Below, in pieces: positions 3,795-31,597 of a stretch of 64,000 bases of DNA. The translations under genes were made by a program, and so were the position numbers. Within the stretch, counting starts at the first letter, position 1; the number at the start of each line of letters is the position of its first letter. The notes beneath the pieces were generated by a model. The model saw only the letters and a program-made list of their open reading frames with translations. It was not told the DNA's origin and made no database searches. Source of the stretch: an uncultured Bacteroidota bacterium (lineage in GTDB: Bacteria; Bacteroidota; Bacteroidia; Chitinophagales; LD1). Location: contig CAIOTH010000033.1 in NCBI GenBank assembly GCA_903861145.1, positions 1-64,000 of the forward strand. The letters run 5' to 3'.

Positions 3795-5273
3795 GTGTTA
3801 AAGCAAATCATTTGGACTCTTCTCTTCCTATTTACAGGCAATTGCCTGCATGCCCAAAGTTTCGACTTTAACGATAACTGCCGCAAAGCTTACAAATCGC
3901 TTATAGCCCTTAAGCTTAATGAGGGCAACGCTTTATTAAAAGAAGAAGAGAAACTGCACCCCGATAATCTCATAGCCACTTATCTCGAGAACTACTACGA
4001 CTTTCTAACCGTCTACACCAGCGATGAGCGGAAACTTTATACCGGGTTAAAAAAGAATGAAGACCTGCGCCTTGTTTTATTGACAGAAGGCGATCAACGC
4101 ACTCCCTACTACCTGTTTTCATTAGCCGAAGTAAATCTGCAGTGGGCAGCGCTTGATATTAAGTTTGGCGAATACTTCAACGCCGTGTTCGAAATACGCC
4201 GCGCCTTTAAGTTGCTTGAAGAGAACGAAAAGAAGTTCCCGGATTTTAAGGCTAACAAAAAATCGTTGGGCGTGCTTTATGCTTTGCTGGGCAGCGTGCC
4301 CGATAAATATAAATGGGGCGTTACCCTGTTGGGCATGGATGGCAATGTAGAAATGGGCATGGCTTATTTACATGATTTGATTGACACCGGTAAAACCACC
4401 GGTTTTATTTACCAGGACGAAACCATCATTTACTACGCCTTTCTGCTGCTTAACCTGCAAAATAAAAGCGAACAGGCCTGGCAGGTGTTGCAGGCCAACG
4501 GCTTTCCGAAAAGCGATAACCTGATGAGCACCTACACCTGCGCGCACTTAGGCGTATATGGCAAGCACAATACAGAGGCCATCAAACTATTGGATGAGCG
4601 CCCCACTTCTGATTCGTTTGCAAAATTTCCTTTCCTCGATTTTCTCACCGGCGTGGCTAAACTTAGCGAGTTGGAACCCGATGCCGATACCTACTTTAAA
4701 CGGTTCCTGGTAACCTACAAAGGCGAAAACCACATCAAATCTTCCTACCAAAAAATAGCATGGTGCTATTTATTGAAGGGCGATACCGTTAATTACCTGC
4801 ACTTTATTGCCAACGCCAACAAGCTGGGCGCTAACACGCTTGATGCCGATAAGCAAGCAAAAAAAGAAGCAGAAGAACACCGTATACCCAATCCTCAACT
4901 ACTTCGCGCGCGTTTGTTGTTTGATGGTGGAGACTACCCCAAGGCCATCGCCCAAATGAACAACACCAATGAAAACGCCTTTAAAAGCACCGACGATAAA
5001 ACTGAATATCTATACCGTCTGGGTCGTATTTACGACGAAACTCATCTACCCGACTCGGCTTTGGTTTATTATGGCCGCGCTATTGACAAAGGCAAAAATA
5101 TACCCCGCTATTTTGCCGCCAACTCAGCCCTTTTATCGGCGCAGATATATGAGGCAAAAGGCGATAAGGAGAAGGCTAAATATTATTACAACCTCTGCCT
5201 GTCGTACCCCAACCACGAATACAAAAACGGCCTCGACCAGAAAGCTAAAGCAGCCTTGAATAGAATGCAATAG
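3795..5273 (+). CDS. TPR-repeat-like secreted protein, unknown function
   Basis: Signal-peptide-like N-terminus (LKQIIWTLLFLFTGNCLHAQ) and TPR-like segments (YLYRLGRIYDETHLPDSALVYYGRAIDKG). GTG start. Confidence 0.7.
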   Translation: MLKQIIWTLLFLFTGNCLHAQSFDFNDNCRKAYKSLIALKLNEGNALLKEEEKLHPDNLIATYLENYYDFLTVYTSDERKLYTGLKKNEDLRLVLLTEGDQRTPYYLFSLAEVNLQWAALDIKFGEYFNAVFEIRRAFKLLEENEKKFPDFKANKKSLGVLYALLGSVPDKYKWGVTLLGMDGNVEMGMAYLHDLIDTGKTTGFIYQDETIIYYAFLLLNLQNKSEQAWQVLQANGFPKSDNLMSTYTCAHLGVYGKHNTEAIKLLDERPTSDSFAKFPFLDFLTGVAKLSELEPDADTYFKRFLVTYKGENHIKSSYQKIAWCYLLKGDTVNYLHFIANANKLGANTLDADKQAKKEAEEHRIPNPQLLRARLLFDGGDYPKAIAQMNNTNENAFKSTDDKTEYLYRLGRIYDETHLPDSALVYYGRAIDKGKNIPRYFAANSALLSAQIYEAKGDKEKAKYYYNLCLSYPNHEYKNGLDQKAKAALNRMQ

Positions 5274-5349
5274 TGCGCAAAGGTGTTAATGTGTTAATGG
5301 GCGCATGTTGAAAATGTATTTAAGTTTGTATGTAACGTGAATACCTAAC

Positions 5350-6396
5350 ATGAGTGCGCCTGTCCATACCAATGCTTCCCTTAAGCCCTTCAACACCTTT
5401 GGTATTGATGCTATCGCTAAGTACTTTACCGAAATAAAATCGGTAGACGATTACCGGCGCCTTTTAGGTGATAAAAAACTATCGTCGGAAAAGAAGTTGA
5501 TACTTGGCGGTGGCAGCAACATTTTACTCACTCAAAATTACGATGGCCTTGTTATTCATAACTGCATACCAGGTATTGAAGTTGTTAGCGAAACCGAAAA
5601 CTTTGTAATCGTAAAAGCAAACGCCGGTGTAGTTTGGCATCATTTGGTGCTTTGGGCTATTGAACGCAATTACGGCGGTATCGAAAACCTCTCCCTCATT
5701 CCTGGTTTTGTTGGTGCTGCGCCTATGCAAAATATTGGTGCGTATGGCGTTGAAATAAAAGATGTATTTCAGGAACTAGAGGCCATTAACGTGCACACCG
5801 GTGAACTTCAAATCTTCAACCTAACCGATTGCGAATTTGGTTATCGCGAAAGTGTTTTCAAATCAAAATATAAAGGGCAATTTCTTATTGCCTCGGTTAC
5901 ATTCCGCTTTGCAAAACTCAACAGTCCCGCTGCACTTTCAAACTATCGTTTTAAAACCGATTACGGCGATATTAAAGAAACACTCGGCCAAATGCAGGCC
6001 TTCGATTTAAGCGTCAAAGCAGTTAGCGATTCCGTTATCAAAATACGCTCTGCCAAATTACCCGACCCTCAAAAAATAGGTAACGCCGGCAGCTTCTTCA
6101 AAAACCCGGTTATAAATAAAGAACAATACGAATCACTCGTTGCCCAATACCCGGTTATGCCCAGCTATCCTCAAAATGATGGCACTATTAAAGTGCCTGC
6201 CGGGTGGTTAATTGAGCAATGCGGCTTTAAAGGCAAAATTGTTGGCAACACCGGTGCCCATGCAACACAAGCCCTGGTGCTAGTCAACTATGGCCACGCC
6301 ACCGGCCACGAAATCTGGCAGCTTGCCATCACCATCCAACAAACAGTAAAAGAGAAATTCGGTATTGATATTTCGCCCGAGGTGAATGTGGTGTAA
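5350..6396 (+). CDS. murB: UDP-N-acetylmuramate dehydrogenase
   Basis: NASLKPFNTFGIDA, LGGGSNILL, GFVGAAPMQNIGAYG, FGYRESVFK, GNAGSFFKNP. Confidence 0.96.
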   Translation: MSAPVHTNASLKPFNTFGIDAIAKYFTEIKSVDDYRRLLGDKKLSSEKKLILGGGSNILLTQNYDGLVIHNCIPGIEVVSETENFVIVKANAGVVWHHLVLWAIERNYGGIENLSLIPGFVGAAPMQNIGAYGVEIKDVFQELEAINVHTGELQIFNLTDCEFGYRESVFKSKYKGQFLIASVTFRFAKLNSPAALSNYRFKTDYGDIKETLGQMQAFDLSVKAVSDSVIKIRSAKLPDPQKIGNAGSFFKNPVINKEQYESLVAQYPVMPSYPQNDGTIKVPAGWLIEQCGFKGKIVGNTGAHATQALVLVNYGHATGHEIWQLAITIQQTVKEKFGIDISPEVNVV

Positions 6397-21732: not shown

Positions 21733-24700
21733 ATGAAGCAGGTTTTACTTTGCACTATCGCAGCTTTGTTTTTATCGTTAACCGGTTTTGCCCAAACGCC
21801 GCAATATTTGCCTTACCAGGCAGTAGCGCGTAACACGGCGGGTAATTTGCTTTCCAACCAAAACGTTACACTTCGTTTTACTGTGCACGATGTAAGTGCC
21901 ACCGGAACTATTTTGTACCAGGAAAAACACTCGGCAACTACCAACAAGTTGGGCTTGTTTAATGTAAATATTGGCGCAGGCACGGTGCTTAGTGGCACTT
22001 TTGGCAGTATTGCCTGGGGCAGTGGCACGGCTAAATACATGCAGGTTGAAATTGACCCTACCGGTGGTACAACCTACACCGATATGGGCGCTTCGCAAAT
22101 GATGAGTGTGCCTTATGCACTATATGCAGGCAGCGCTGGTTCGGCAAGCGGCACTGCGGGTGGCGATTTAACGGGAACTTATCCTAATCCATCCTTAGCA
22201 AATGCAGGCACCTCGGGCACTTATACCAAAGTAACTACCGATGCTAAAGGGCGTGTAACCTCAGGCTCAAACCTTACTGCAACCGATATCCCTACAGGTA
22301 ATTTAACCGAAAGCACCTCCAGCGTTTTATCAATAACAGGCGGTAACAGCTCGGTTGTAGGCACTGGTACCTCTATCCAGGTAAAACAGGCTTCGGGTTC
22401 ACAAAACGGATATCTTTCATCAACCGACTATACTACCTTTAATAACAAGCAACACACGGTTACATTAACCACTACCGGAGATAATGGTGCGGCGACCTTT
22501 AACTCTGGCACCGGCGCTTTAAACATTCCTAATTATTCTTTAACTGGTTTGGGTGGAGTTGGATTAACAGATTTAGGTGCAACTGCCCCTTTAAACTATG
22601 ACAATAGCACAGGCACATTTTCAATACCAGTGGCAAGCACATCTGCCAACGGATATCTTTCATCTGCTGCCTATACTACTTTTAATAACAAGCAAACTAC
22701 AGTTTCGTTAAGCACTACAGGTAACAACGGTGCTGCAACATTTAACAGCAGTACAGGTGCACTAAACATTCCGGACTATACTCTTGCAGGTTTGGGCGGA
22801 ATTAGTTTAACCGGTTTAAGCGCATCGGCACCTTTAAATTATAATAACACTACCGGTGCGTTCAGCATCAATTCTGGTGGTATTGGTAATTCATTATTGG
22901 CTAACCCATCTTTAACGGTTACCGCCGGCACCGGCTTAAGCGGTGGTGGCTCGGTAAGTTTAGGTGGCACGGTTACTTTAACTAACGCGGGTGTTACATC
23001 GCTTACCGCGGGCACAGGGGTTAGTTTATCGGGTAGCACCGGTGCTATTACGGTAAACGTATCGGCATCAGGTATTGGTGCTATAACATCGTTAAACGGT
23101 TTAAGCGGTACTTCGCAAACTTTTGCTAATGGCACTTCGGGTACTGCACCTGCTTTTGCTTCATCGGGCACGGTACATACCTTAAATATACCAATGGCTT
23201 CAACCACATCGGTTACCGCAGGCCTTTTATCTAATACTGATTGGAACACTTTTAATAATAAAGTAGGCGGCTCGGGCACAACCAACAACCTGGCTAAATT
23301 TACCGGTACCGCTGCTATAGGCAATAGTCTTTTGGCAGATAACGGAACCTCGTTATACCTAAGCAATAACGGGGGAGGAGATAGTAAGGCAATATTGGAC
23401 TTAACCAATAGTGGTAACCTGGCATTTTTGCCACCCAGCATGACTTATGCTCAGGAGCAAACCCTGGCACCGCCAACTACTTCTACCAATGGCTACGTAG
23501 CTTACAACACTACATCTAACTGTTTAGATTTGTTTACCAATGGCCACTGGCAATCTATTTATTGCGGATGTCCAACACTACCGGCGCTGGTAGGAATAAC
23601 CGGTAACATTTCGGTTTGTGCCGGCAGTACACAAAGTTACGTAGTACCTGCTATTACAGGTGCCACATCATATACCTGGACAGTAACCGGCAACCCCACA
23701 ATAACCGGGCAAGGCAGTAACTCTATTTCGTTTACCGCTCCATCAGGCACCACCTATACCGTGTCGGTTACTGCAGCAAACGCATGTACCGGAGCACAGG
23801 CAAGCAGTGTAAGTAAAACACTCGGCGTATCCGATTTTTCAGGTTCACCGGCAACTCCAACCTGGAGCGGAACTGCCCCGTCTGTTAATGTTTGTACCAG
23901 CGCAACGGCTACATATACAGTTACCAGCCTTTTTGGAAGCAGTGGTACAGGGGTTGTTACCTATTCGTGAACTGTAAGTGCAACCGGTAGCGCTACAGCT
24001 ACTATTACAGCAAATAGTGCAACAGCAAACAGCTCAACACCAGCTACATTTACTTCTACCTCTTCTCCCTCAATAACTTTAAACTATGGGTCAGGAACAG
24101 GTACGGTTACTGTAAGTGTGGTAGCAATAAATACATGTAATGCCAGTTCGGCTTTGTCTGTTGGCCCTATAACTGTTTCGACCCAGCTTGCGGGTACAAC
24201 TCCTGCAACGCCAAGTATCAGCACGGGTTCCCCGGTGTGCGGTGGTTCGGCGGCTACTATTTCTGTAACAGCTGTTAGTGGTGCAACATCTTATACCTGG
24301 ACGGGCGTTCCTATAGGATTTTCGGTTACCACCGGTAGCATAACAAGCAGCGCTTTTGGTGGTACATTGGGTAATACCGGTGGTATATACAATTTAGGTG
24401 TTACGGCAAGCAATGGTTGCAGCTCAAGCAGTGCAAGTAGCACCACGCCTGTAGCTGTTTACACTGGTGCACCGGCAACTCCTACTTGGAACCCAACTCC
24501 TGCTGCCAATGTTTGTACCTCAACCAATGGCGTTACATACACTGTAACAAACCTTATTGGTACCAGCGGTACGGGTGTTATTACATATTCATGGACAGTA
24601 AGTGCAACCGGTAGTGCAACGGCAACCATTACGGCAAACAGCACAACGGCAAATAGCACAACGCCCGCAACATATACATCAACATCTTCTCCCTCTATAA

Positions 24701-26310
24701 CTTTAAATTACGGTACAGGCGCTGGAACAGTTACCGTAAGCGCGGTAGCAATTAATACATGCAACAGCAGCAGCGCACTTTCTGCAACAATTACGGTTTC
24801 AACTCAACTTGTCGGAACTACACCGGTAACCCCGGGTATGAGCCCGGTTTCGCCAATTTGTAGCGGCACATCCGCAACAATCTCAACAACGGCAGTTACA
24901 GGTGCTACCAGTTATGCATGGACAGGAGTGCCTACAGGTTTTTCTCTTACGGCAGGATCACTTACCAGTAATTCATTTACCGGCACTATAGGCTCTACAG
25001 GTGGCACATTTAACGTAGGTGTTACTGCCAGCAATGGTTGTAGTACAACCAGTGCAAGTAGCACATTGCCGGTAACAGTTTATACCGGTGTTCCTCCGAC
25101 CCCGTCATGGACTGCAGCACCTGCAACTTCAATTTGCCCAAGCCAAACCATTACCTACGCTATAACCGCTTTAACTGGTGCAACGGGCGCTGCAAATTAT
25201 ACATGGACATTTACGGTAACCGGCAGTGCCAGCGCAACGGTTAACGGCACAACCGTAACTGCGTCTAACTCACCTTATACCATCTCAAATACCGCCACTA
25301 CTTCGTATTCTGTGGCGTATGGTAGTGGCTCGGGTTCTCTTGCTATTACGGTTGCCGGCAATAATGCGTGTGGCTCTACTGCGGCGCCGCTCTCGACCAC
25401 AATTACCGTGGGGGTACCTCATGGTAATTATACCTGGAGCACAGCCGGAGCTCAAACTACTGTAACCCTATCCTCTTGCGTTACCAACGTCTCTTTTACG
25501 GTTATTGGTGGCTCTGGCGGGGTTTCTTCAGCAGGTGGAACTCCCGGTCTTGGGGCTATCATTACCGGAACAATTACAACAACTGGTGGAGGATCGTTTA
25601 CTGCTTATGTAGGTAGCCAGGGCGGTGCCGGATCAAGTGCAACAGGCGGTAGTGCCGGCTCAAACGGTGGAAGTGCCATCTTGGGTGCTCCTGGAGAAGG
25701 TGCGGCGGGCGGTAGTGGTACGGCCAGCGGCGCCTCTGGTGGTGGTGGCGGTGCCGCCTCTGAGCTGGTCGGCGGTAACCAATCCGCGATTTATGCAGGC
25801 GGTGGCGGCGGTGCTGGCGATGATCCTAATACGGGCTGCGCAGGATTGATGAGTGGGGGCAATGCCGGTACCATGACGCTGGGTAATGCCAATGTCGGAG
25901 CTAACGGAGCAGGATGTACAGGAGCCTCAGGACGTTGTAATAGTTCTAGTAACCAAAACACTTATGGACAGGGTGGAACGCAAAGTGCAGGTGGATATGG
26001 TGGAGATCCATTTAGCTATTCCACAAGCGCGGAGTGCGGAAGCAATGGAAGTTATTTATCAGGTAATGGCGGAGCCGGCGGTTACGACAAAAGCACAAAT
26101 AATTATGGCGGCGGCGGTGGCGGCGGTGGCTGGGCCGGCGGCGGCGGCGGAAGCGGCGGCGGCGGTGGCGGTGGTTCAAGTTATGTTAATACTACTGCAT
26201 ATACATCGGGTGGTATAACCTATACATTTAGTTATAGCACCACTTCGCCAAATGGTAGTGTTAGCGGCACAGGCGTAGCCGGTGGCGGACAAATCATACT
26301 ACAGTATTAA
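21733..26310 (+). pseudogene. giant secreted repeat protein with C-terminal glycine-rich domain, interrupted by in-frame TGA at 23968-23970
   Basis: ORFs 21733..23970 and 24118..26310 are in the same frame and the intervening sequence has no other stop. Signal peptide MKQVLLCTIAALFLSLTGFAQ; tail-fibre-like GDLTGTYPNPSLA..KVTTDAKGRVTSG; PKD/Ig-like repeats; Gly-rich C-terminus. Confidence 0.85.
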
Positions 26311-26412: not shown

Positions 26413-29268
26413 ATGAAATTTAAATATATAATCCTCTTACTGGCAATCCTGCAAACCGGCCTAACCGGTTTACAGGCGCAAACAACGCTAAGCCCAAGTG
26501 TACAAGCTACACAAGGCGGCCAGGCAACCGGCAGTAACGTTGACCTGCAGTGGAACATGGGAGAAACTTTTATCCCTACCCTCACAGCAGGCAGCACTAT
26601 ACTAAGCCAGGGTTTTGAGCAACCTGAAATTGAAATTGTTACCGGGGCCATAACCGGCGGCCCTTTTTGTTTGGCTCAACCAATTACCGTTCCGTTTACT
26701 ACTGATGGTTATGTTGATGCATCAAACGTTTACACTGCACAGCTGTCTGATGCCAGTGGTAGTTTTGCCAGCCCGATAGCAATAGGCACATTAACCAGTA
26801 CGGCTATATCGGGTTCAATTTCCGCCACGCTGCCCTCTGCAATAGCCTGGGGTACCGGTTATTTGGTGCGGGTAATAAGTTCGGCGCCGGTGTTTAATGG
26901 TAAAGCTACCTCATCGGCTATTTCTATAGGTTTATGCAGTAATACTTGGATAGGAACTACTACCGATTGGACAAACCCGGCTAACTGGAGCGCAGGTGTA
27001 TCTCCTTCCTCGTGTGGCGATAACGTTATTATCCCGGCCAACGCTAATAATTACCCGGTGTTAACCGGCAATGCCACGGCGGGTGGGGTAACTATAGCAA
27101 ATGGTGCGGATATCAATCTTCAAAATTACAATTTGTCTATATGCGGTAACTGGGCGGGGCCAGGTAGTGGTGTAGCAACCGTAACCGGTACCGGTTTGGT
27201 AATTCTAAACGGTAGCTCGGCGCAAACCATAAGCGGCCAAACCGTAGTGCAGGAAATGATGCTTAATAACCCCGCGGGTGTAACTATGCAAGGCTACTCA
27301 AGCCTCGCAATATATACCGCACTCGATCTTAAAGCAGGTACCTTTAATGCAAACGGTGGTTCGGTATTTTTTAAAAGCACTTCGGTTAGCAGCGTAGCCA
27401 TAATAGATAATTTTAGCGCAGGTTATACCGGAACTATTACGGGCAATATTACTGCCGAGCGCTATTTTACCACACCAAGTGCCAATTCGTACGGCCAGCA
27501 CTTACTAGGCACACCTGTTAGCGGCCTCGATTTATCGGTTTTTGGCGCCCACGGGGCAGGCGCCTTTGTAATTCCACAATCTGATTGCGATGAAACAAGA
27601 CTGGCTTTTGGGTCGCCCTATGGCAATGTGTTTAGTTATCACGAAGCTAACGGCGCGGCTTGCGAAGAGGCACAGTGGCGGGTTGAGGGGCAGGGCCCTG
27701 CTCAAATCGGCGTTGGTTATTCGGTTGTGCTTAATGGAACCGGTACATTTAGTGTAAACGGGCCTACTAATTTATCAGATGTTTCGGTGGGCAACTGTAC
27801 CAATAGCGGGTGGAACAATACCTCGCTTCAAAACCGGCCTTACGATGGCGGCTGGCAATTTCTTTCGAACCCTTACCTGGCAACACTGCAAATAGATGCA
27901 TCGCTTAACAGCGGCTCGTTTGATAACCAGGTGCAGGTTTGGAACACCAGTACCGGTAGCTATACCCTTACAACGACTGTTGCTCCCTTCCAGGGTTTTA
28001 TGGTGCATAAAACTGCAGTTGGCGGCACTGCGGCCACTTATGTAATAAAGGCCAGCGAAAGAGTAAGGAACCCACAAACGTTTTACCAGTTAAATGCTAA
28101 TCAATTAACCCTGGTGGCTTTAAATAATGCCACCGGTTTGACCGATCAAACTGTTATTGGCTTTAACCCAAATGCTACTGATACTTTCGATGCGCGCTTT
28201 GACGCAAATAAACTACCGGGCGATTTGGATCGCCACACCATTTACAGCGTTAATAACGGGCAATGGATGGCACTGAATATGTTGCACGACCAGGCAACAA
28301 CCAGCACCGTACCAGTGGGCTTTGAACCCGGTACTACCGGTGCCTTTACCCTAAACCTTAACGGCGTAAATACCTTTGACCCTACCAGCTATATATACCT
28401 TGAAGACCAGGCACTGGGCGTAATGCACAATGCCCGTAATGGCGATTATTCGTTTACGGCTGATAGTGCTGATGCATGGGGCCGTTTTGTGGTGCATTTT
28501 ACCCCACCGGCCCAAATAACAACGCTTGATGCTACCTGTACATCGGCCGGTACCATCAATATTCAACAACCCGGTACGGCAGATTGGATATATACCTTAA
28601 CTGATAGTTCAAATGCCATTGTCACCAGCGGTATTTTGAACCAGGGCAATGCAGTAACAGTAGACGTAGCACCGGGTACCTACCTGCTAACGCTTACCGA
28701 TACCAATAACTATGTGGCTGTAAAATCTATACAGGTAAACGGGTCGCAAATGTTGTCGGCGGCCTTTAATGTATCAAGAGATACAGTGCAAATTCAGCAG
28801 AGTGTGGTGTTAACGGCTACTGCAAATGGCGCCACCAACTACCAATGGAATTTAGGAAACGGCATTGTGGTTAACGGCGCTACCGTTACGGTAAGCTATG
28901 CACAGGCAGGCTCATATAATTTAACCCTGCTTGTTACAAGTGCAGGTGGTTGCACCTCAACACAAACGCAAACTATTATTGTGCTGCCTGCCAGTACTAC
29001 AGGTTTAAGTAATCTGACTGCAAACTCAAAAATCGGAATATGGAGCCACGACAATAAAGTTTATGTGGATTTTACTGCTTTGCAAAAAGTTGACGCCACA
29101 GTTATAATTTATGATATCTTGGGTCAGCAAATAAGTAGTGAGAAGGTAACTAACAGCCTGCTATACCAAAAGGAGCTTGACCAGATTGAAGCAGCCTATT
29201 TTGTAGTAATGGTTAAAAACGATGATAAAATTACCACCAAAAAGGTGTTTATAATGAATTACAAATAA
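26413..29268 (+). CDS. secreted PKD-containing protein with T9SS type A sorting domain
   Basis: MKFKYIILLLAILQTGLTGLQAQTTLSPSVQATQGG.., PKD (YQWNLGNGIVVNGATVTVSYAQAGSYNLTLLVTSAGGC), C-term VIIYDILGQQISSEKV..TTKKVFIMNYK. Confidence 0.88.
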   Translation: MKFKYIILLLAILQTGLTGLQAQTTLSPSVQATQGGQATGSNVDLQWNMGETFIPTLTAGSTILSQGFEQPEIEIVTGAITGGPFCLAQPITVPFTTDGYVDASNVYTAQLSDASGSFASPIAIGTLTSTAISGSISATLPSAIAWGTGYLVRVISSAPVFNGKATSSAISIGLCSNTWIGTTTDWTNPANWSAGVSPSSCGDNVIIPANANNYPVLTGNATAGGVTIANGADINLQNYNLSICGNWAGPGSGVATVTGTGLVILNGSSAQTISGQTVVQEMMLNNPAGVTMQGYSSLAIYTALDLKAGTFNANGGSVFFKSTSVSSVAIIDNFSAGYTGTITGNITAERYFTTPSANSYGQHLLGTPVSGLDLSVFGAHGAGAFVIPQSDCDETRLAFGSPYGNVFSYHEANGAACEEAQWRVEGQGPAQIGVGYSVVLNGTGTFSVNGPTNLSDVSVGNCTNSGWNNTSLQNRPYDGGWQFLSNPYLATLQIDASLNSGSFDNQVQVWNTSTGSYTLTTTVAPFQGFMVHKTAVGGTAATYVIKASERVRNPQTFYQLNANQLTLVALNNATGLTDQTVIGFNPNATDTFDARFDANKLPGDLDRHTIYSVNNGQWMALNMLHDQATTSTVPVGFEPGTTGAFTLNLNGVNTFDPTSYIYLEDQALGVMHNARNGDYSFTADSADAWGRFVVHFTPPAQITTLDATCTSAGTINIQQPGTADWIYTLTDSSNAIVTSGILNQGNAVTVDVAPGTYLLTLTDTNNYVAVKSIQVNGSQMLSAAFNVSRDTVQIQQSVVLTATANGATNYQWNLGNGIVVNGATVTVSYAQAGSYNLTLLVTSAGGCTSTQTQTIIVLPASTTGLSNLTANSKIGIWSHDNKVYVDFTALQKVDATVIIYDILGQQISSEKVTNSLLYQKELDQIEAAYFVVMVKNDDKITTKKVFIMNYK

Positions 29269-29273
29269 AGGAC

Positions 29274-29468
29274 ATGCGTAGTAGGATTTTAGCAGTAGTA
29301 TATACGGGCCTTATTATACTTTCAACGGAGCTTTTGTATGCGCCGGGGCCACCGCCTCCACCGGCCGCAACATCGGGGCCGATTGACCGGGGTGCGATTG
29401 TACTTTTATTAGCTGTTGCGGGCTACGGTTTTTTGAAGATTAAGCGCAGCGAAAAGGCGATAGCGTAA
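29274..29468 (+). CDS. short secreted protein with PID-CTERM-like C-terminal sorting signal
   Basis: MRSRILAVVYTGLIILSTELLYAPGPPPPPAATSGPIDRGAIVLLLAVAGYGFLKIKRSEKAIA: signal peptide, Pro-rich linker, PID-x-G motif, TM helix, basic tail. Confidence 0.75.
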   Translation: MRSRILAVVYTGLIILSTELLYAPGPPPPPAATSGPIDRGAIVLLLAVAGYGFLKIKRSEKAIA

Positions 29469-29497
29469 TTACAATAATTATAATACTACATTTATAC

Positions 29498-29540
29498 CTG
29501 AACCATGCATAAAACCTGCATGGTTCAGTTTATTTTAGGG
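29498..29540 (+). terminator. terminator/attenuator hairpin between the sorting-signal protein and exosortase genes
   Basis: CTGAACCATGCA (29498-29509) / TGCATGGTTCAG (29517-29528), 12-bp perfect stem, 7-nt loop, followed by TTTATTTTA. Confidence 0.75.
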
Positions 29541-29547
29541 AGGATAT

Positions 29548-30105
29548 ATGGAGAAGCTAAAGAAACGGCTAAAAGACCCCGCTAATTTATTTGTGCTGAA
29601 TATATTTATTGTATATGCAGGGTGGAAAGCCTTTTCCTATTATATTAAAAACAGCAGCGGGTGGGCGCATTCGTCTTGGCTTAAGTTAATTATTGTTTTG
29701 GGCAAGGCGTATGCGGCCGCCACCTGCGTTGTACTGAATACTTTTGGCGAATTCACGGTTCGTGACGGCATATCGGTTTTTTATCCGGTGCTGAATCGAA
29801 AAATAAGGGTTGAAGACCATTGCCTGGCAATACCTGCAACAGTCATATTTATTGGCACTATTTTGTTGTTTAAAGGTTCCTGGAAAAATAAACTTTGGTT
29901 TATACCGGTGGGCATTTTATGTATATCGGCCATTAACCTGTTGCGGCTGGTTTTTGTGTGCTACACCTTTGCGCATTTTTCAGAAGCGTTTTTTGATATT
30001 AACCACTCAGTAATTTATGTTGTAATTACTTATTCGCTTATTTTTTTGCTGATTGCGTGGTGGATGCGAAATTTTACTTACTCTAAAAACGATATTGCTT
30101 CGTGA
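29548..30105 (+). CDS. exosortase/archaeosortase family protein
   Basis: Multi-TM 185-aa protein with EDHC92LAIPATVIFIGTILLFKGSWKNKLWFIPVGILCISAINLLR133LVF...FFDINH153SVIYVV, matching the exosortase Cys / NxxR / His active-site pattern. Confidence 0.85.
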   Translation: MEKLKKRLKDPANLFVLNIFIVYAGWKAFSYYIKNSSGWAHSSWLKLIIVLGKAYAAATCVVLNTFGEFTVRDGISVFYPVLNRKIRVEDHCLAIPATVIFIGTILLFKGSWKNKLWFIPVGILCISAINLLRLVFVCYTFAHFSEAFFDINHSVIYVVITYSLIFLLIAWWMRNFTYSKNDIAS

Positions 30106-30148
30106 GAAATATTGCGTTTGTAGTTCTTTAGTTTAATTTGACTTTTGT

Positions 30149-31018
30149 ATGGCCGACCAGGAAAAAATCCGGTACGATGAAGATGAAACGGGAGAGGACT
30201 TTAGCAATAAAGTATGCCGGGTTGCAACATCGTTTGCCATGTTGGTTGCGGCTTTTATTACGAGCAACCTTGTTCTGCAAATACTGATTGCTGTTTTCTC
30301 ACGGGCACTAAAGTACGCCGTTAAGTTTTCCTATAATGAGGTAACCGTTACCCCTTGGGATTATCACTATTGGAACCGCACTAACGTTGCATTAACATCG
30401 CTTTTGCCGCCGGTAATTTGCCTTGTGTTGGGTATGGTTATTTTCGGGTTTCTTCATAAGTATTCTGATTGGGCGGGCAGGCTTCGCATCTTTTTCTTTT
30501 GGCTTTCGGCATCGCTGGTTAATATGGTTTTAACCCATATATTAATTGCACCGCTTGGCACGCCGCTTAATCTTAACAACGGGTTATACCAAACGTTTGC
30601 GGTTATAGCGGCGTGGTTTTATATCGATCCTCAACTTATGGTAATGGCGTCATTAGCGTCATTAATTTCCTCGCTGGGTGTAGGTATATTGTTACGCAAA
30701 GAGGTTATGCGCTACAGCTATTCTAAAAAGCTAATCAGGGTTAAAGCGGGTATGGATAGTATGGTTTTACAGGTTTATGTATTTCCTCTAATGCTGGCAA
30801 TTTTGCCGGTTATGCTGTTATGCACAAGGGCAGGTTTTCTAACCAATATTATGGAGTTTGCAAACCTTGCAGTTATGTCCATAGGCATTTTTATCATGAA
30901 TTCGGTTGGGGGTGCCAAAGTAAGATGCAATAGAAAGGATGTGCTTAACCATATTCCGGCTGTTGAATTAGCCGTTAGTGCAGCGGTATGGTTATTAGTA
31001 TTTTTCCTGTTAAGATAG
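30149..31018 (+). CDS. polytopic membrane protein, candidate exosortase-associated, unknown function
   Basis: Intact 289-aa ORF, acidic cytosol-like N-terminus then multiple TM helices; same strand and 43 bp after the exosortase. Confidence 0.75.
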   Translation: MADQEKIRYDEDETGEDFSNKVCRVATSFAMLVAAFITSNLVLQILIAVFSRALKYAVKFSYNEVTVTPWDYHYWNRTNVALTSLLPPVICLVLGMVIFGFLHKYSDWAGRLRIFFFWLSASLVNMVLTHILIAPLGTPLNLNNGLYQTFAVIAAWFYIDPQLMVMASLASLISSLGVGILLRKEVMRYSYSKKLIRVKAGMDSMVLQVYVFPLMLAILPVMLLCTRAGFLTNIMEFANLAVMSIGIFIMNSVGGAKVRCNRKDVLNHIPAVELAVSAAVWLLVFFLLR

Positions 31019-31025
31019 CAGCAGA

Positions 31026-31439
31026 TTAATTAAACCTGAAAAAGAAAAAAGCAACGGCAATCCATTCTTGTTTAACTCCGCTTGCATGGCCTATAGTGCT
31101 GCCGTGGCTATCTTCAACGGTTCCGTCGCTTCTTATGTGTCCAATTGTGCTACCATGGCTGTCGTCTACAGTACCATTACTTTCTACACGACCAATTGTG
31201 CTGCCATGGCTATCTTCAATAGTGCCGCCGCCTCTAATATGGCCTATTGTACTGCCGTGGCTGTCTTCAATGGTTCCATCGCTTCTTATATGGCCTGCAG
31301 TGCTACCATGGCTATCTTCAACCGTTCCGTCGCTTTTAATTTGACCGGTGGTTGAACCGTGACTATCGGAAAGAGTTTGCGCCTTCGAAACAAAAAAGGA
31401 GCCTGACAGGATTAGGCAAATAGCTAGTAATTTTTTCAT
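31026..31439 (-). CDS. secreted 17-residue tandem-repeat protein (beta-flower-like)
   Basis: MKKLLAICLILSGSFFVSKAQ signal; repeats SDGTVEDSHGSTIGHIR; C-term WIAVAFFFFRFN. 51-bp period at 31096, 31147, 31198, 31249, 31300, 31351. Confidence 0.75.
   Translation of the reverse strand: MKKLLAICLILSGSFFVSKAQTLSDSHGSTTGQIKSDGTVEDSHGSTAGHIRSDGTIEDSHGSTIGHIRGGGTIEDSHGSTIGRVESNGTVDDSHGSTIGHIRSDGTVEDSHGSTIGHASGVKQEWIAVAFFFFRFN
31096..31380. repeat. coding 51-bp tandem repeat (about 6 units)
   Basis: GTGCTGCCGTGGCTATCTTC-type units start exactly every 51 bp. Confidence 0.9.
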
Positions 31440-31597
31440 GGGGATTTTGATTTTGTTATTTGCAAGGTAAGTAATTTGCCAAATGTAAATGCACCTGTTT
31501 TTTATTGAAAAACGAGATAGGATGCTGCAAAGCATTAACTAAAACAGCTTCAGGCATTTACCTAATGCTGCTATTATACGTTTAAATAAAAATGAGG

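Follow-up and report, generated by a model that had tools for sequence, protein, structure and literature searches.

A recurrent cassette in Bacteroidota places an XrtX-like exosortase beside a PID-CTERM-like peptide and a type IX secretion cargo

Organisation of the locus

The window, by which we mean the whole stretch of 64,000 nucleotides analysed here, is contig 33 of a source genome assembly of 4.7 Mb that is 98.65% complete. Four open reading frames, all on the + strand like the features described below, are found in it between positions 26413 and 31018, with intergenic gaps of 5, 79 and 43 bp, exactly as the original prediction had laid them out, the 5-bp gap between the first two genes included. 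These encode a 951-amino acid (aa) secreted protein with a PKD domain and a probable C-terminal sorting domain of the type IX secretion system (T9SS), referred to here as the cargo (26413..29268); a 64-aa PID-CTERM-like small protein, the proposed substrate (29274..29468); a 185-aa XrtX-like exosortase (29548..30105); and a 289-aa multi-TM protein (30149..31018), proposed from genome neighbourhoods to be the exosortase partner and assigned to a family that we call MP289. The arrangement is not a matter of chance, since it is seen again on contig C59 of the same genome and in many other genomes.

The gap between the 64-aa gene and the exosortase gene contains an intrinsic-terminator-like hairpin (29498..29528; z = -4.0), made up of a 12-bp stem and a 7-nt loop and followed by TTTATTTT, a T-rich run. 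The terminator scan returned 7 sites overall, no excess over the 6.6 of shuffled sequence, and this hairpin has the longest stem found. Hairpins of unrelated sequence lie in the same gap in L014, L063, L065, L069, L080 and L106, and are absent from it in other loci. A terminator-like hairpin often parts the cargo and PID genes from the enzyme gene, a feature newly described here, which suggests that cargo and PID peptide may be co-produced at a higher level than the exosortase.

Regarding the surroundings of the locus, two + strand ORFs of 745 and 730 aa (21733-26310) resemble two parts of the same repeat-rich secreted protein, interrupted within a repeat by one in-frame stop (23968-23970), which could correspond to a pseudogene, a sequencing error or recoding. 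On the - strand, at 31026-31448, there is a repeat protein matching the Pfam 5-fold beta-flower family (Bflower_2) with 132 bits.

The exosortase and its candidate substrate

The third gene product had been taken for an exosortase from its pattern of Cys, NxxR and His residues, and the search of 29548-30105 against exosortase models bears this out, the 185-aa protein scoring 54.3 bits with the exosortase/archaeosortase superfamily model TIGR04178 (curated cut-off 23). Of the named subfamilies, exosortase X (NF046081) gives the highest score, 76.3 bits; this is under the cut-off of 170, and thus the enzyme is called XrtX-like and not XrtX. Cys92, the predicted nucleophile (29821..29823), Arg133 of the NxxR motif (29944..29946) and His153 (30004..30006) are present as described, and these three residues, together with Gly122 and Asn130, are invariant in 58/58 aligned exosortase relatives. 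Phylogenetically, the protein falls inside a strongly supported clade (98/95) of 19 members, 13 of them labelled PID cassettes, which stands apart from the branch holding the best-scoring XrtX rows. Judged by these comparisons, it is an exosortase of the same superfamily and of a divergent, XrtX-like subfamily. Among the solved structures of the PDB, no sequence relative was found. The shortness of the enzyme, pointed out in the original prediction, is normal for this group, the XrtX model comprising 168 positions.

The 64-aa protein begins with a hydrophobic N-terminus and continues with a Pro-rich linker, the sequence PIDRG, a second hydrophobic segment and a tail of basic residues, parts named in the original prediction as signal peptide, Pro-rich linker, PID-x-G, helix and basic tail. 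In an alignment of 16 members (the window protein and 15 relatives), no variation is seen at P36, D38 and Y51 and hardly any at G40, and all share the hydrophobic N-terminus, a mostly Gly/Pro-rich linker, P-[IV]-D, the hydrophobic stretch and the basic tail. The alignment therefore describes a small exported protein with a tripartite end, composed of P-I-D-x-G, a hydrophobic helix and a basic tail. Residues 36-40 (PIDRG; 29379..29393) are proposed, from their conservation, as the region of recognition and probable cleavage, and the sorting-signal hydrophobic segment with its basic tail extends over 29394..29465. With a model built from the 16 members, the protein itself being one row, a search of the genome recovers it with 78 bits. 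The idea that this short ORF might be spurious was rejected, motif and position being conserved where it recurs.

NCBIfam already holds a PID_CTERM family (NF046080, curated cut-off 26 bits), which the 64-aa protein does not match. Its relatives grade into this model, with 14 bits for L065, 22 for the C59 protein and 32 for L050, and alignment and neighbours mark the 64-aa protein as a divergent relative of the NCBI family. A substrate of such size had been considered unusual, but it is typical of PID-CTERM proteins: at the 90 places found in 249 genomes, the median open frame is 82.5 aa long and the longest 144 aa.

The pairing of both components was surveyed across the order. An XrtX-like gene is present in 90/249 genomes and PID_CTERM in 51, and the two occur together in 50 of these 51 PID genomes (Fisher p about 2e-26, a value that carries no correction for kinship). 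A motif scan of 58 exosortase loci found 24 PID-like ORFs, with 22 of them located on the same strand and upstream of either the exosortase or the membrane partner, at a distance of up to 500 bp, a placement for which about 3% would be expected by chance. These counts of co-occurrence and adjacency led us to reject a fortuitous pairing of exosortase and PID gene, and they support the reading of the 64-aa protein as the cognate substrate, whose processing would follow by analogy. The original prediction was open to refutation by the lack of an exosortase match or by homologues that do not co-occur with PID-x-G proteins; both points were tested, and match and co-occurrence were found. Taking into account the PID-CTERM family of NCBI and the co-occurrence and adjacency with XrtX, an enzyme with a tiny substrate represents a known kind of system.

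The reverse relation is looser, as an exosortase is found at 3 kb or less from only 23/90 PID places in the order. The source genome itself encodes four PID-like proteins for its two exosortases, and two of the four are orphans carrying PFDGG. Because of these numbers, the original description of a dedicated, one-substrate system is too strong: the pairing of exosortase and PID protein recurs, but need not be strictly one to one. The orphans are small proteins ending in IPFDGGVFLL... (L012, 7244-7435, and L013, 6843-7058), with no exosortase nearby, and one of them scores over the PID_CTERM cut-off. Among the close exosortases, L051, L052 and L057 have no adjacent PID protein; at L064, the PID position, flanked by a T9SS-like cargo and the exosortase, is taken by a 62-aa ORF (5184-5372) that has a C-terminal hydrophobic helix and no PID motif.

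The T9SS cargo

The 951-aa protein matches Pfam PKD_4 with 36.9 bits. Against the T9SS type A model (TIGR04183, cut-off 23) it reaches 19.3 bits as a whole and 25.2 bits when its last 100 aa are taken alone, and against the type C model (NF033708) 24.2 bits, the cut-off being 40. The host has a T9SS, as judged by PorU, which scores 1215 bits against a cut-off of 420.

In most loci of this type a large same-strand gene lies 2-85 bp upstream of the PID gene, and the C-termini of 12/18 of these upstream cassette proteins match the type A model (E 0.01 or better). Thus, the link with T9SS that had been drawn from a single neighbouring gene is real and recurrent. A custom model, for which cassette cargos of other genomes were the sole input, was run against the source genome and placed its two cassette cargos at the top, with 94 and 83 bits; a third protein reached 49 bits and none of the rest exceeded 39. 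Since both cassette cargos are ranked first, the sorting domain (29011..29265 in the window) is a subtype that travels with the cassette, specific to it and newly recognised here.

The recurrent cassette is made up of T9SS cargo, PID protein and exosortase, and the source genome has two copies of it. The second copy (L014, contig C59, 1761-10702) encodes a 2399-aa T9SS-like protein, a 75-aa PIDGG protein, a 286-aa MP289 relative and a 185-aa exosortase, the membrane protein preceding the enzyme. The arrangement is not confined to the source lineage, because a locus of a Flavobacteriales MAG (L007) has, in the same order as in the window, a T9SS cargo of 601 aa, a PVNGG protein, a bona fide XrtX (175 bits) and an XrtX-associated protein.

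The membrane protein family MP289

The 289-aa protein is a member of a family without a name, described here; across the 20 members examined, Pfam and NCBIfam give no match that is consistent and the PDB gives none, and a PHROG match was not found either. W75 and W118 are invariant in the alignment, and S28, Y147 and P213 nearly so. The protein did not match the XrtX-associated membrane protein model NF046082, so that the linked partner of exosortase X was not found at this locus. Homology with the 147-aa XrtX-associated proteins was rejected as well, with an hhalign probability of 0.5%, in what is a weak test with a mixed short set. A single-sequence AlphaFold model of the protein was unusable (pLDDT 46).

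The family is present in 39/249 genomes, and 28 of its 59 places have an XrtX-like gene no more than 3 kb away. Most of the other copies examined lie directly downstream of gldB, the gene of a gliding/T9SS-associated lipoprotein, and several exosortase-linked copies have the order gldB-MP289-exosortase. In this way, the family touches T9SS biology twice. The source genome also contains a gldB gene (GldB, 225 bits) followed by an MP289-family gene (L018, contig C45, 5039-7087), with no exosortase beside the pair, although several relatives have one there. In two further loci (L135, G008:C4, and L130, G176:C3) a PID protein is followed directly by an MP289-family gene with no adjoining exosortase, the pair of L135 being preceded by a 1716-aa gene.

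Proposed mechanism and alternative explanations

We consider it probable that the locus is an XrtX-type exosortase cassette, whose enzyme would cut the PID peptide at the inner membrane and yield a product acting in the service of the T9SS cargo encoded with it. In this scheme, the signal peptide would export the 64-aa protein, which would stay anchored in the inner membrane through its C-terminal helix. The exosortase, through Cys92, Arg133 and His153, would then cut near PIDRG, by analogy with other exosortases, and the freed Pro-rich peptide, of about 13-17 residues, would be transferred to an acceptor in the envelope. Meanwhile, the large surface protein would leave by the T9SS carrying its cassette-specific C-terminal signal, and the processed peptide, or the acceptor joined to it, most likely helps to anchor, guide or mature this cargo. 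Such a service is our best guess because the cargo is co-encoded and has a signal subtype of its own. The 289-aa protein most likely works with the exosortase, in the supply of the acceptor, in substrate presentation or as a scaffold. Against this scheme speak the missing match of the 64-aa protein with the PID_CTERM model, the close exosortases that have no PID protein beside them or a small neighbour devoid of the motif, the location of most PID proteins of the order away from any exosortase, and the spreading of F. johnsoniae xrtF mutants.

The peptide might also have a job of its own, for instance as a secreted or lipid-linked product, the exosortase processing it with the T9SS cargo as a mere neighbour and the operon reflecting a common regulation of surface functions. 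PID proteins are indeed often orphans located far from any exosortase, and at L130 and L135 they stand beside the membrane protein with no exosortase next to it; nevertheless, the presence of the cargo directly upstream in most cassette loci, and the specificity of its signal subtype for the cassette, make this explanation rather unlikely. The fact that the subtype tracks the cassette, and that the MP289 family also adjoins gldB, would fit the view that the exosortase or its partner has the cargo itself as another client, the C-terminal signal of the cargo being modified, for example, by the same acceptor, and the PID peptide acting as a carrier. This is very improbable, taking into account that the C-terminus of the cargo (KKVFIMNYK) has no tripartite signal and that the known T9SS sortase, PorU, is encoded in the genome. 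It is even harder to believe that the PID protein is a small membrane subunit of the exosortase complex instead of its substrate: a tiny mature part and a fixed position next to the enzyme could be expected of a subunit, but its tripartite signal is that of other exosortase substrates, and there are several PID proteins per genome, many of them unlinked.

The preferred explanation, service of the processed peptide to the cargo, can be extended to a broader proposal, which is possible but doubtful. According to it, a subset of T9SS surface proteins would be matured or anchored via an inner-membrane exosortase, with PID peptide, XrtX-like enzyme and MP289 making the anchor or export partner of the cargo, and the gldB-MP289-exosortase arrangement would be a housekeeping version serving the gliding/T9SS machinery.

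The kind of system is known already, XrtX and PID-CTERM being named in NCBI models. Our literature searches found no paper mentioning PID-CTERM, and those for exosortase X returned nothing on an XrtX/PID-CTERM system; within the reach of our searches, three things are new, namely the T9SS-coupled cassette, the subtype of its cargo and the family MP289. With the recurrent cassette, an orphan class of Bacteroidota exosortases gains a well-defined candidate substrate, and these enzymes are tied to the T9SS through a particular subtype of cargo, a very small peptide and a newly described membrane protein. If the coupling is true, the surface display of some T9SS proteins would depend on a second sorting system.

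Comparison with known systems

As in type IX secretion with the PorU sortase, the cargo has a probable T9SS-type C-terminal domain and PorU is encoded, but PorU is an outer-membrane sortase unrelated to the window exosortase and, to our knowledge, the exosortase cassette is not part of the T9SS as described. With the PEP-CTERM/EpsH systems the locus would share its proposed chemistry and a tripartite C-terminal signal, whereas it is without a PEP motif and its enzyme and substrates are much smaller; no exopolysaccharide genes were seen beside the window exosortase.

A close likeness is that to the set formed by XrtX, PID-CTERM and the XrtX-associated protein (NF046081, NF046080 and NF046082), with which the locus has in common the subfamily group, a tiny PID-x-G protein upstream and a small multi-TM partner adjoining the enzyme, the bona fide XrtX locus L007 also having an upstream T9SS cargo. 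It differs in an enzyme that scores under the XrtX cut-off and falls outside the branch of the best-scoring XrtX rows, and in a partner from an unrelated-looking family of 289 aa instead of the 147-aa NF046082.

Another related system is that of XrtF and the exosortase F system-associated protein (TIGR04128, TIGR04127) of Flavobacterium johnsoniae, which likewise combines a short exosortase, a membrane partner and a T9SS host, although the window enzyme reaches only 43 bits against the XrtF cut-off of 90. The substrates of XrtF in F. johnsoniae are, according to the authors, still to be found (PMC10936215). In this bacterium, zorbs (biofilm-like microcolonies) no longer form when xrtF or the partner gene is deleted, a surface-colonisation defect seen also in porU, porV and sprA deletion mutants (PMC10936215), and the same mutations, in xrtF and the partner on the one hand and in porU, porV and sprA on the other, strongly reduce biofilm (PMC10936215). 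Among nine mutants, spreading was lost only in that of sprA, and xrtF mutants spread (PMC10936215). Loss of the exosortase in F. johnsoniae is thus not a general failure of the T9SS, since these mutants still spread, and its phenotypes support a role of the exosortase at the cell surface and argue against a general T9SS block.
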